Of a stretch of 64,000 nt of DNA, positions 29,220-48,860 are shown piece after piece. Position 1 is the first letter of the stretch. Each line of letters starts with the position of its first letter. A program made the translations under genes and the position numbers. Source of the DNA: Aptenodytes patagonicus (lineage: Eukaryota; Chordata; Aves; Sphenisciformes; Spheniscidae). The notes beneath the pieces are model-generated. The model searched no databases and was not told the DNA's origin. It saw only the letters and a list, made by a program, of their open reading frames with translations. The DNA lies in contig NC_134963.1 in NCBI RefSeq assembly GCF_965638725.1, positions 12,738,501-12,802,500 of the forward strand. The letters are read 5' to 3'.

Positions 29220-29840
29220 TCTTAAGCAGGTATGAGTTGACGGTGCTGGGGGTTAAGCTTGTGAACACAGAGGCCTGAGAGGATCTAAAGAATCAAGTAT
29301 TTCCACTGAATTGTAGCAAACAACTGTGAAAGTAAAACATAACTCTATAATGCCTAATTTAAGTAATACTTTTTAACTTTTCCTTCAAAGTGAAAGAAAA
29401 GGGGGAAAGAACACTGGGCAACAGAGATTCTAAAGGCATTTTAATTAACCCTTAAAATAACACTCAAAGATCTTGAGTGCATCTGTTGATCCCTTTCCCG
29501 TTATTTTAGGGATGAGAGCTTCAAGTGCACTGGGAGAGCAGTTCCCAGGTTTCTTACAAGAAAAGTAGGGGTGGAGCGTGAAAGGGCAGAGCTAATAAAT
29601 AACATTTTAGGAGAAGCCTCATAAAAGGCCTTCTTTTAACTCCTGTTTGCTCCCTATTTAGGTCTATTATTCTTGGAATTACTGACCAAATTTTGAGGGT
29701 GGTTACCATAGCGTTTAGATGTTTTGGGTTTGAGAAAATAAACTTTGTTAGAAAGTTAGTCATCCACATTCACAGGGAAATAAATAGCACGAGCAATACT
29801 AGAAAAAGAAGGTACACAGCCGTAAAACTTTTAAAGGCAG
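29220..29840. other. Spacer between RNF10 upstream region and DYNLL copy A
   Basis: This is AT-rich sequence with no recognisable coding or RNA gene. It has no counterpart in the second arrangement, where the 580-bp patch runs almost directly into the copy C 3' UTR. Confidence 0.5.
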
Positions 29841-29851
29841 AACACAACACT

Positions 29852-29857
29852 TTTATT
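29852..29857 (-). terminator. DYNLL copy A poly(A) signal
   Basis: TTTATT on the plus strand, followed by agcaaagaag, is the minus-strand AATAAA. The same hexamer and flank occur at matching points in copies B (31857-31862) and D (46184-46189). Confidence 0.6.
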
Positions 29858-30082
29858 AGCAAAGAAGCTAGCTGTGGAAAGAAAATAAATACAAGAAAGT
29901 TTGGGTGTGGGTTTTTTTTTTTGCTATTTTCCCCTAACTACAATAAAAACATGCTAGCAAAATCCCTGCCATTGCCCTTGAAGGCCAAGGTCTGCTTTCT
30001 CAGGAAGGCTGAAGGCACAGGCTTTGTCCCGTTAGCACACAACTGAGTAACGAAATAAGAGTTTGAGAAACAGTCCAGGGCT

Positions 30083-30625
30083 CTAAGCACCCTTGAGGAG
30101 AACAACAGTAACAGGACCCAGGCAGAGGAGGATGAAGCGACTGGTCTTGCGAGTCACAAAATTCCTTCCCACAGCACACTGCCAGGTAGGATTGTACTTC
30201 CCGTCAAACTCCTGCAGAAGAGACCACCAGGAACTCAGTATCACTGTTCAAGTGCTGTCTTTGGAGAGTGGAGGAAAGGACTTAAATAGAAGGAATTGTG
30301 AAAGAGAAGGGGAGGAACTGGAAAAGTGCATATAAGGGGTACAGAAAAGAACATAAGGGCACCAGTCTGCAGAGAAAGTCTGACTGGATTATCTAGTGTC
30401 CACAGAACTTGCTTCTCTAGAACTACTTACCCACCAACATTTTTGCTTGATTTTTGAAGTCCATAGAGCATTCAGTAGAAAAACATTATGAGCAAACACT
30501 TATGCTCTTTATTTGAGCTGCAACGTCACGCTCAACGTTGCGTTCCTCCAGAGACTGAATGGCACGCTCCACAGCGTCTCTTCAGACACGTCCGCATTCT
30601 TGATCACTGCCTTCCGATCACTCAT
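30083..30625 (-). pseudogene. DYNLL copy A, decayed LC8 dynein light chain
   Basis: The first coding exon (30625-30504) starts like the intact gene ([12 protein letters not shown]). It then lacks 10 nt after SEE, shifting the frame, and the exon 1 donor GT reads AT. Past the gap the old frame reads AVERAIQSLEERNVERDVAA. Exon 2 (30211-30083) is still open, but has EFDGKYNPTWQCAVGRNF, lacks three residues of the GSY segment, and its beta-strand end is rewritten (LCLGPVTVVLLKGA). This points to loss of function after duplication. The gene body is diverged, yet the 5' third of exon 1 and the upstream 400 bp are nearly identical to copies C and D. Confidence 0.85.
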
Positions 30626-31160
30626 GGTTGTCTGCGTTGAGCAAAGAAGAGGAGAATTCAAAGTTGCAGGAGCAGCCACCTGCCGGAACCACCCCCCAAG
30701 CAGTCACACAGGTATCCCCATTCACAGCCAGCTTTCAGGGCCCGCGCTGTGCCCACAGCCGCGGCTGTGCGGCATTTCTGCCGGGTGTGTCAGAGGCGCA
30801 GGCACAGCCCGTGCTCGGAGCCAGACGAGCGGCGGCTTAAAAGCCCGGTCACGTCAAGCGCCTGCTCTCCGGCCGCTCCAGCCTGGGCCCACACAAGCAC
30901 CGCCGGAGGGCTTTCAAACCCCGCCGGACACCGCCGCCCGCCCGGCCCCTCTCCAGCCCGACGCAGGCCGGGTGCCCCGCCCGCGCCGCGGCCGCCCCTG
31001 ACCGCCCCAGCCCCACCCCCTGCGCACCGGCCGCCAGCCATTGGTCACCGCCACCGCCCGCCCCGGGCGCTCATTGGCCGGGACCGGGTGCCTCTCGGCG
31101 GTGCGTTCCCTTTCAGACCGGCATGCCCCGCGCCTGCACCCGTTCCCATAGCGACGGGGA
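30626..31160 (-). promoter_or_regulatory. Copy A 5' region and promoter-like CpG island
   Basis: The segment 30626-30976 is nearly base-for-base the same as 36781-37127 (C) and 47830-48190 (D). It then jumps to the distal promoter, with two CCAAT boxes (ATTGG at 31040 and 31073) and the motif gttcccatagcgac (31142-31155). About 420 bp present in C between these parts is missing here. The element looks able to drive transcription although its gene is broken. Confidence 0.6.
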
Positions 31161-46183: not shown

Positions 46184-46189
46184 AAGAAG
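46184..46189 (-). terminator. DYNLL1: DYNLL1 copy D poly(A) signal
   Basis: TTTATT on the plus strand (AATAAA minus), 222 bp past the copy D stop, in the flank tagcaaagaagcc shared with the other copies. Confidence 0.7.
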
Positions 46190-46410
46190 CCATCTTTTGA
46201 AAGAAAATAAATACAAGGAAGACATTTTTGCCTTTTTTATAGCCACAATGAAAATACCAGCTGCTACAGCAAAATCCCTGACCATTAACAATACAACAAA
46301 AGACCTGAAGATCAAGGTCTGTCTCCTCAGGAAGGCTGAAGGTGGGAGGCTGTTTGGAGTTGGTGTGCAGTCCTGTAACCAGGTGCAAGTTTCCGTAACA
46401 GTCTGTGGTT

Positions 46411-47829
46411 CTAACCAGACTTGAAAAGAAGAATAGCGACTTGGCCGAGGTAGAAGTAGATGAAGTGCTTGGTCTCATGAGTCACGTAGCTGCCAAAGTT
46501 CCTTCCCACGATGCAGTGCCAAGTGGGATTGTATTTCTTGTCAAACTCCTGCGGAAGAGAGAACTAGGAATTCAGCATTTTCGTGAGAATTGTACTAATG
46601 CTGTACAGGGGCTTTTTGCAATGATATGTCACTTGTTAGCAAGTATCACTTTTGGAAGGCGGCAATTAAGGAGCAGCATATGCTCTTAAGTGCAAGGATC
46701 ATCTGTCATTTTATAACTCACCTGCTGCTTAGTCAGACAAAAAAAAATAAGAAGTGCTTCTGAGCTGAGCAGGAATAAGTTTAAAACATATGTTTGGGGA
46801 AGTAACTTTTCCTCAGAAGTCATACCATGATCTCAAACCATAACTTTTAAGAACTTCACTGCTTGTTCTGAGTCTATACAGTTTAAGCCATTATTTTGAC
46901 TTCATTAGCTGTTTTCAACAAGGACGCTGAAAGGACTCTTGATGGAAAATTCTCTGCCACGTCCTTGATATCAGCTCATGAGACCATGTTCTTCCTACAC
47001 ACTGTAGTCGGGAGCCTGCTATGACTTTCAAATAAACTCGTGTGTACAAGTCTACTATGAGTAAAACCACACAGTCAGTGGTTATATACTGTCGTATGTA
47101 ACAGCCATCAGCTGAAGAGACTTTTTGTGAGAGCATGCAGGAGTTTGTGTTATGCTCAACCAAACCCTTCAATTACTTGCAGCTCAATCAGGCTCCCAGT
47201 AGGAGTCAGAGAGAAAATCTGACAAACTGGAAGCTATGAACCATCTGTTCTGCATTACCATGAACAGTTTGTCTTACATGTGGTAGAGGGGGGAAAAAAA
47301 CCCCAAACACAAACCCCAAACCAACAAAACCACTTCTTATTACAAGGTCAGCAAACCACCACTTCTCAAATAGGCTCCACAGAGCCCCTGTGTTTTGTAC
47401 CAGCTCATCAGTCACAGGGACAGTCAGCTGCCACTCTCTGTTCACCTGGACAACAGGACAGTGGCAGAAAAGGCTTAAGTAGAAGGTACTGCAAGAGAAA
47501 AGCAGAAGGACCTGGAAAAGTCCACGCAAAGGATGGGGAAAGGAACATAAGGACACCAGCCTACAGAAAAAGTCCAACTTGATTATCTAGTGTCTCTAGA
47601 ACTTGTTTCTCTAGAGCTACTTGCCCAGCAGCATTCTCCCTGCTTGATTCTTCATGTGCATACAGATCTTGTGAGGACAGTACAAGCAAACATTTACCTT
47701 CTTTATGTGAGCAGCAATGTCCTTCTCGATGTTGTATTTCTCTAAGGCCTGAGTAGCACACTCCACAGAGTCTTGCTGCATCTCTTCAGACATGTCCGCA
47801 TTCTTGATCACTGCCTTCCGATCACTCAT
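46411..47829 (-). CDS. DYNLL1: DYNLL1 (copy D), LC8 dynein light chain at the conserved locus
   Basis: This copy has the position expected of the single amniote DYNLL1, just beyond COQ5 and convergent with it. Coding exons are 47829-47698 and 46548-46411, 89 residues. It has the canonical [20 protein letters not shown] and [20 protein letters not shown] segments, and a tail ending LLFKSG. As I recall the family, it differs from human DYNLL1 only at residue 2 (Ser, as in DYNLL2, instead of Cys). A splice acceptor (caacacag) lies 6 nt before the ATG, so a noncoding 5' exon is likely in the upstream CpG island. The upstream 530 bp and exon 1 are almost identical to copy C, but the middle of the coding intron is not. 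Confidence 0.95.
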
Positions 47830-48639
47830 GGTTGTCTGTGTTGAGCAAAGAAGAGGAGAATTCAAAGTTGCAGGAGCAGCCACCTGCCGGAATCACCCCC
47901 CAAGCAGTCACACAGGTATCCCCATTCACAGCCAGCTTTCAGGGCCCGCGCTGTGCCCACAGCCGCGGCTGTGCGGCATTTCTGCCGGGTGTGTCAGAGG
48001 CGCAGGCACAGCCCGTGCTCGGAGCCAGACGAGCGGCGGCTTAAAAGCCCGGTCACGTCAAGCGCCTGCTCTCCGGCCGCTCCAGCCTGGGCCCACACAA
48101 GCACCGCCGGAGGGCTTTCAAACCCCGCCGGACACCGCCGCCCGCCCGGCCCCTCTCCAGCCCCTCTCCAGCCCGACGCAGGCCGGGTGCCCCGGGAGAG
48201 GGCGCAGCCGCTCCGGCACCCGGCCCCGACGGCCTTTCCCTGCCGAGGGGAGGCGAACGAAGCCCAGCACCCCCCGCCAAGGGCTCGGGGCCCCGCGCGG
48301 CTACATGGAAGGCTCCCGCTTGGAGCTCCCAGGGATGCGGGAAAGGTGGAGCCGGCCGCCGGGGAAGAGCTCTGGCACGGGGGAGCCGCTGGGACACGCA
48401 CCGCTCTCGGCAGCGCCGGTTGCCAGCGTGCCCGGACACGGCGAAGACTGCGGCTCAGCAGCCGGTCCCGGTCTCCCTCGGAAGCCGCCCCACTCCAAAC
48501 ACCCTGCCCCTCACGCCGCGCCCCTCACCGTTCAGCGGGCGCTGCGGGACCGGCCCTGGAGCGGAGCGGTGCGGCGCTGCGGTCTGCGTAGTGCGCGCCG
48601 CCGCCGCCGCCTCCGAGCGCCCCCAACCCCGCCCCCTCC

Positions 48640-48860
48640 GCACCGGCCGCCAGCCATTGGTCACCGCCACCGCCCCCCCGAGCGCTCATTGGCCACGGCC
48701 CCGCGCTCTAGTAGGGTTTTACTCGTGCGTTTTCTTTCAGACCGGCATGCCTCGCGCCTGCGTCCGTTCCCATAGCGACGGGCGGCCGCAGCGGCGTGGG
48801 CGCAGCCCCGGAGCGAGGCCTCTGGGGCGGCCCCGGATCCCCGCCGCGGGATGCAGGTGA
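48640..48860 (-). promoter_or_regulatory. DYNLL1: DYNLL1 copy D CpG-island promoter
   Basis: Two CCAAT boxes (ATTGG at 48656 and 48688) and the motif gttcccatagcgac (48766-48779) occur in the same order as in copies A and C. The last motif resembles an RFX X-box (two half sites around AT). A plus-strand donor (gatgcag|gtgagg, 48856) suggests a divergent noncoding transcript. Confidence 0.6.

Follow-up and report, generated by a model that had tools for sequence, protein, structure and literature searches.

A tandem family of LC8 dynein light chain genes around COQ5 in Aptenodytes patagonicus, probably old and partly homogenised by gene conversion

Results

Organisation of the locus

Four units of the gene for the dynein light chain LC8, here called A, B, C and D, lie in a 64-kb window of the Aptenodytes patagonicus (Spheniscidae) genome, positions 12738501-12802500 of the 17.4 Mb contig NC_134963.1 (assembly GCF_965638725.1; 1.35 Gb, 618 contigs). 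Positions in the text and in Table 1 count from the first letter of this window. By tblastn and translation, all four units are on the minus strand and have two coding exons each, as the original prediction made from this DNA had stated. They are housed between RNF10 and SRSF9, around COQ5, in a single gap-free stretch, with not one N in the whole window. The gene order is RNF10 (-), A, B and C (-), COQ5 (+), D (-), SRSF9 (+), GATC (-), TRIAP1 (+) and COX6A1 (-), the assignment of SRSF9 resting on one exon match (58.5%). D was predicted to sit beside COQ5 in a conserved position, and it does, with SRSF9 on its other side; we take the COQ5-SRSF9 slot to be that of mammalian DYNLL1. To our knowledge, other vertebrates have LC8 as one gene at this locus.

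The introns and 3' regions of the units align, so they are DNA duplicates and not retrocopies, again as predicted. An origin of the units as retrocopies of DYNLL1 was considered and rejected, as the introns between the coding exons are homologous and have not been lost. In A, which is shortened between its coding exons, intron homology is limited to the exon flanks.

The best candidates scored in an assembly-wide search with LC8 were the array itself, DYNLL2 on C17, and one weak match (38%) on C1. The last of these, at C1:58300342-58300512, is an unassigned dynein light chain relative. DNA of the A promoter matched within the array only, and DNA from upstream of RNF10 matched itself, a second copy between B and C (R2), and some short weak stretches. 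Searches of the assembly with these three queries found no second copy of the locus.

Table 1. Features of the LC8 array and its surroundings (window coordinates)
Feature	Position	Strand	Description
Copy D, DYNLL1 in conserved slot	46174..48790	-	From tblastn, translation, splice sites, signals and flanking genes
Details of D		-	Coding exons 47698-47829 and 46411-46548 (stop included); AATAAA 46174; CCAAT boxes 48656, 48688
Copy C, intact LC8 (A21)	34899..37720	-	Coding exons 36649-36780 and 35158-35295; CCAAT boxes 37586, 37618
Copy B, divergent LC8 paralogue	31857..34110	-	Exon 2 33623-33753 (1-nt deletion); exon 3 32090-32227, open
Copy A, A-type paralogue, pseudogene	29852..31160	-	Putatively converted 5' part; exon 2 lacks 10 nt; A-type exon 3 30083-30211
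CCAAT boxes of A (two)	31040, 31073	-	
Putative conversion tract 1, D side	47381..48364		5 differences in 974 columns; 5' DNA, exon 2, part of intron
Putative conversion tract 1, C side	36332..37304		From segmentation
Putative conversion tract 2, D side	46368..46572		1 difference in 205 columns; covers exon 3 and the first part of the 3' UTR
Putative conversion tract 2, C side	35115..35319		From segmentation
Putative conversion tract in A	30567..30979		Partners C 36712-37134 and D 47781-48194; one end within exon 2, next to the frameshift of A
R1, CpG-rich tract upstream of RNF10	28634..29219		1 difference in 586 columns against R2; GC 0.70, CpG observed/expected 0.92
R2, second copy of this tract, between B and C	34266..34851		From segmentation and assembly search
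Partial copy of RNF10 exon 1	34145..34250	-	Open frame, GT donor; 79% identical to RNF10 exon 1 region 28141-28258
COQ5, between C and D	38995..44943	+	Pfam PF01209 (Ubie_methyltran), E 1.6e-89, joined exons; start and stop by eye

State of the four copies

C and D, predicted to be intact, indeed have full LC8 reading frames, and the exon-2 acceptor, exon-2 donor and exon-3 acceptor read AG/GT/AG in both. Their proteins differ at residue 21 only (Ser in D, Ala in C), and none of the roughly 49 synonymous sites in the coding exons has changed. The division into two coding exons after residue 44 was found in B, C and D. An AATAAA signal follows exon 3 in A, B and D. We found none in C on the minus strand within 34700-35165, so the C transcript may end elsewhere or run on toward the partial copy of RNF10 exon 1.

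B is frameshifted by a 1-nt deletion in exon 2, as predicted; its splice sites, exon-3 frame and AATAAA signal are intact, and no CCAAT box was found in 33750-34260. The prediction also called B divergent; most of this divergence belongs to an old paralogue and is not due to decay, exon 3 of B matching an albatross protein (Thalassarche) in 43 of 44 residues. A was predicted to be decayed, and its frame is indeed disrupted: exon 2 has lost 10 nt where the near-identical tract ends. In addition, the homologous exon-2 donor lacks GT, and 9 nt are deleted from exon 3. The exon-3 deletion, which removes residues 63-65, is common to 15 of 16 other A-type exon-3 rows (Herpetotheres is without it), and many A-type models have additional residues where exon 2 ends; thus, neither feature is new decay of A. 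Similar additional residues are as expected if the A-type donor had shifted before the lineages of these birds split.

Near-identical tracts on a diverged background

Tracts were called by two-state segmentation of the aligned units, and runs of identical columns were tested against 2000 shuffles each. Outside the tracts, C and D differ in 24% (5' DNA), 42% (intron) and 24% (3' part) of alignment columns, B differs from C in 37% and from D in 35% with no segment of low divergence, and A differs from the other units in 45-50%, all of these figures including alignment noise (local alignments mostly gave 66-73% identity). The two C/D tracts have 0.5% differences. The tract in A shows four differences in 414 columns against C and four in 404 against D (~1.0%), and the core promoter of A is 79-81% identical to those of C and D. 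For B the segmentation found no near-identical tract against C, D or A; a self-alignment gave 90% identity with C and D over 93 columns of its 5' DNA.

The longest identical runs (388 columns for C/D, 290 for A/C, 270 for A/D and 294 for the RNF10 upstream pair) each exceeded all 2000 shuffles; the C/D shuffle maximum was 57 columns. The DNA flanking the C/D tracts is diverged and collinear on both sides, so in-place replacement is a better account than a new duplication. The RNF10 tract is likewise flanked by diverged DNA on either side. Synonymous divergence (dS) is 0 for C-D, 0.47 for A-D and 0.69 for B-D. The tracts reach beyond the scope of coding constraint, into an intron, 5' DNA, a pseudogene and the region upstream of RNF10. 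What we observe is the pattern expected of interlocus gene conversion, namely sharp-ended, near-identical tracts within collinear, diverged paralogues, and recent gene conversion is the best explanation of it. The original prediction had taken matching introns, 3' untranslated regions (UTRs) and, for the most part, promoters as a common property of the copies. That C and D, and the 5' part of A, are nearly identical points to recent tract-wise homogenisation on a diverged background.

CpG-rich 5' DNA is included in three of the four tract pairings. The observed/expected CpG ratio is 0.61-0.93 in C/D tract 1, the A tract and the RNF10 tract, and 0.21-0.22 in the diverged introns.

The tract upstream of RNF10 differs from its second copy by 0.2% (99.8% identity). 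The partial copy of RNF10 exon 1 that adjoins the second copy is only 79% identical to its counterpart. A transcript joining this exon copy to B would meet a stop soon past the join, by hand reading. A pigeon protein model with a tail resembling RNF10 exon 1 scores 28.5 bits against exon 1 and against its partial copy alike, so an old age of the copy is not shown by this model.

Relatives in other birds

Relatives were sought among annotated protein models. The read-through protein of B gave 23 matches, of which the 20 with a species name are all from birds, one of them (Gavia) having an A-type exon 3; they include Rhea (Palaeognathae), Cygnus (Galloanserae) and Thalassarche (Neoaves). The A protein gave 232 matches, the best 120 of which were examined. 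A pattern scan of 195 proteins identified 16 A-like proteins, all from named birds, and 23 B-like proteins, 22 of them from named birds. None of the 16 A-like birds is, by the taxonomy we assume, a palaeognath or galloanserine, and many are presumably Neoaves. A profile of nine B-type proteins (best 120 of 3562 matches) contributed further rows from Chunga, Fulmarus, Harpia and Oxyura, along with one from a tinamou in which exon 2 is B-like. Absence from songbirds or parrots is not to be inferred from the best 120 of 232 or of 3562 matches. Some B-type genes are named 'dynein light chain 2, cytoplasmic-like' in public databases.

In a tree of exon 3 (46 rows, 45 columns), an A-type clade and a B-type clade each received support of 100/100. 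The former joins A of the window with Bubo, Fregata, Ciconia and others, the latter B of the window with Rhea, Cygnus, Lagopus, Grus, Thalassarche and others. In the exon-2 tree the B group lies on one side of a branch with support of 95/97. Labels (A, B or none) were assigned by visual inspection ahead of tree building; nine of the 46 rows have none, partly owing to a mixed exon 2 (Haliaeetus, Harpia, Accipiter1, Lophotis, Colinus). The truncated or extended models P0019, P0021, P0022 and P0023 were left out of the trees. The occurrence of B-type proteins across Palaeognathae, Galloanserae and Neoaves indicates that the B lineage is older than crown birds, and the A lineage, judged from 16 other bird species, is common to many birds.

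Exon 3 of B in the window matches Thalassarche in 43/44 and Rhea in 41/45 residues, and exon 2 matches them in 35/42 and 32/42. Other exon-3 comparisons gave 41/44 (Rhea-Thalassarche), 41/45 (Rhea-Cygnus), 38/45 (Rhea-Grus) and 36/45 (B of the window-Fulmarus), and exon 2 was looser in most B pairs compared (31/44 to 35/42). B of the window is closest to Thalassarche (albatross) and Spheniscus (penguin). Several contigs bearing B-type models are near the window's own contig in size: Rhea 17.4, Grus 18.0, Balearica 16.8, Cygnus 15.6 and Oxyura 15.1 Mb. Others are unlike it, namely those of eagles (44-48 Mb), of Lagopus (9.8 Mb), and a number of small scaffolds.

For the age of the C/D split, 5' peptides of 21 models from other birds were compared with the window (minus-strand matches at 1e-3). 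Judged by residues 16 and 23, four models resemble DYNLL2; these had no 5' match, which leaves 17 DYNLL1 models. Among the six with Ala21, the best 5' match was C in Anas and Manacus, D in Patagioenas and Onychostruthus, and A in Parus, with no match for Ammospiza. Among the eleven with Ser21, it was D in Morphnus and Gallus, and A in Cinclus, Corvus, Poecile, Prinia and Catharus; Haemorhous matched best outside the array, with D second, and Agelaius, Geothlypis and Numida had no match.

Mosaic exons

Five N-terminal sites (2, 4, 5, 10 and 11) distinguish canonical LC8 from the B-type and from many A-type proteins. The 16 A-type exon-2 rows, the window's included, fall into seven that are canonical at all five sites (Bubo, Fregata, Herpetotheres, Pandion, Pelecanoides, Sagittarius and A of the window), seven that are canonical at none, and two that are mixed (Circaetus and Scopus). 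The 17 B-labelled rows have at most two of the five canonical letters, partly by construction, since the eagle rows Haliaeetus and Harpia were not labelled B owing to their fully canonical N-terminus (5/5) on a B-type tail. In such rows the change-over falls within a single exon, between residues 11 and 28. Thus, an annotation that joined exons of two different copies cannot explain such rows, which are as conversion predicts.

Properties of the B-type and A-type proteins

The D protein, a B-type protein (Rhea) and an A-type protein (Bubo) all match the LC8 family PF01221 above the Pfam cut-off. A structure model of the B-type protein, built from nine sequences, had a mean predicted local distance difference test score (pLDDT) of 83.5 in the best of five models (63-75 in the others), and is weaker at residues 61-80. 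Its best matches in the PDB are LC8 structures (4d07; template modelling score, 0.86). At 18 positions the canonical letter is missing from all 17 B-type rows. Eight of these positions (10, 61, 67, 75, 77, 79, 80 and 82) are in the list of ligand-contact residues that we took from the accessible part of PMC3789673. Ser88 is kept in none of the 16 B-type rows that reach position 88; according to the accessible part of PMC12017986, phosphomimetic substitutions of Ser88 dissociate the LC8 dimer. The ratio of non-synonymous to synonymous divergence (dN/dS) between B and D is 0.25, a value confounded by the frozen canonical side of the comparison.

In a neutral-drift simulation against D, A gave P values of 0.031 (exon 3) and 0.22 (exon 2 tail), a weak and confounded result.

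Outside the array, we recognised by eye an open frame resembling the C-terminal part of the protein of a CR1 long interspersed nuclear element at 25430-26008 (+).

Discussion

The explanation that we favour, at a probability of roughly 80%, is an old, bird-specific tandem LC8 family in which gene conversion produced the near-identical tracts and some copies diverged and broke. The family would consist of DYNLL1 (D) and the units A, B and C across COQ5, together with the partial RNF10 exon 1 and its upstream region. The near-identical tracts would be interlocus gene conversions, probably started by meiotic breaks at promoters and CpG islands in birds, which lack PRDM9. C and D would jointly supply ordinary LC8. 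In other birds, B would form a dimeric hub of LC8 fold with an altered client preference and no Ser88 switch, and it would have become dispensable in the window's bird.

The original prediction had proposed a local amplification of DYNLL1, which we considered as a recent, lineage-specific event with A and B decaying fast afterwards. The coding exons of C and D are nearly identical, and 300 nt of the 5' part of A are 99% identical to both, as such an event would leave them. Elsewhere, however, the units diverge by 24-50%, exon 3 is open in both A and B, and the A-type and B-type clades, each supported at 100/100, span birds, so that this account would hold only if identical derived residues had arisen independently. 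Given the divergence of the units and the relatives in other birds, we rejected it as barely credible. A, B and C had also been called extras beyond D. Three further units are present, and many birds have paralogues of the A or B type, presumably at the corresponding position. Could the units be old duplicates in which purifying selection, and not gene conversion, has kept stretches identical? LC8 is an extremely conserved protein, DYNLL1 and DYNLL2 differ little, and each C/D tract includes an exon. Selection on the protein does not account for a C-D dS of 0, nor for tracts that cross intron and 5' non-coding DNA and end abruptly; A has a tract despite its broken frame, and the tract upstream of RNF10 has no coding reason. 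We consider this account very unlikely and reject purifying selection as the sole cause of the C/D identity on the grounds of dS and the non-coding extent of the tracts.

An assembly or polishing artefact is, in our estimate, unlikely. Copies might have been collapsed or cross-corrected, or the deletion in B might be a consensus error, and the only frame-breaking change seen in B is indeed 1 nt long. The window contains no N, however, the assembly searches point to a single locus, the copies are too diverged outside the tracts to be confused, and matching paralogues are present in other assemblies. For the single-nucleotide deletion in B taken alone, some small probability of a consensus error stays.

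Several observations weigh against an old family shaped by gene conversion, or against parts of that explanation. The exon-3 tract, unlike the others, is not rich in CpG (observed/expected ratio, 0.46-0.54). In the exon-2 tree the A rows do not group together (2 changes), for which conversion may be one reason and the small number of columns another. The relatives are known as annotated protein models and not as DNA, some models look like joins of exons from two copies (Hydrobates, Colinus), and contig sizes give no more than a hint of synteny in other birds. A number of B rows from Neoaves appear relaxed (Grus, Balearica, Fulmarus, Lophotis, Himantopus). Client-contact positions are not significantly enriched among the changes in B (10/26 versus 17/63, P 0.32), or among those in A (9/26 versus 17/63, P 0.61). 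The neutral-drift simulation of B against D gave P values of 0.042 (exon 3) and 0.057 (exon 2), which are weak and confounded, as the simulation does not distinguish whether selection acted on B or on canonical LC8. Finally, residue 21 and the best 5' match agree in just 4 of the 17 DYNLL1 models, the other 13 being misfits or unmatched, and any age for the C/D split is poorly supported. Bird DNA changes at a rate near 2e-9 substitutions per site and year, at which a divergence of 0.35-0.4 would correspond to roughly 90 million years; this is not a dated result.

Returning to gene conversion in an old tandem family, the tracts resemble the concerted evolution of tandem paralogues in that near-identical stretches, coding and non-coding, lie on a diverged background. 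They differ from it in that only some members are involved, mostly in their 5' parts, and in that the upstream region of an unrelated neighbour, RNF10, takes part. In flycatchers, promoters and CpG islands have the highest density of crossovers and non-crossovers tend to be near transcription starts, and birds lack Prdm9 (accessible part of PMC4878770). The CpG-rich 5' DNA in three of four tract pairings is consistent with this pattern. The events mapped in that source are allelic, whereas the exchange here would be between paralogues, and we infer the link to the LC8 locus.

The accessible parts of PMC3078936 and of Rapali et al. state that vertebrates have two LC8 genes. The array agrees with the DYNLL1/DYNLL2 system in that C and D encode canonical LC8, the A-type and B-type proteins match PF01221, and the B-type model matches LC8 crystal structures. 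It differs in having two further old lineages beside DYNLL1, the B-type without the canonical letter at eight contact positions and without Ser88, and the A-type mostly without residues 63-65. We found no paper describing a bird LC8 cluster in a literature search judged in part from titles and the beginnings of abstracts; as far as the literature was searched, the B-type genes are annotated yet not described as a family.

In other birds, B would be a real LC8-like hub with altered client preference, kept for a long time and relaxed in several Neoaves. Its loss in the window's bird looks young, since exon 3 differs from the albatross protein in one of 44 residues. We tentatively suggest, as a possibility a little short of even odds, that the B-type protein is a third, bird-specific LC8 hub across crown birds, with groove changes T67S, Y75F, Y77L, Q80G and A82N and no Ser88 switch. 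Such a protein may dimerise without that control and bind other clients; it would have been relaxed or lost in several lineages, the window's bird being caught soon after the loss, and promoter-centred conversion would keep overwriting the 5' ends of its neighbours.

LC8 is a textbook case of a near-unchanging protein. An old bird cluster with two divergent lineages would serve as a natural test of which LC8 positions tolerate change and of whether LC8 can do without the Ser88 switch, and its mosaic of tracts would offer a compact locus for testing the homogenisation of paralogous promoters by PRDM9-less recombination.

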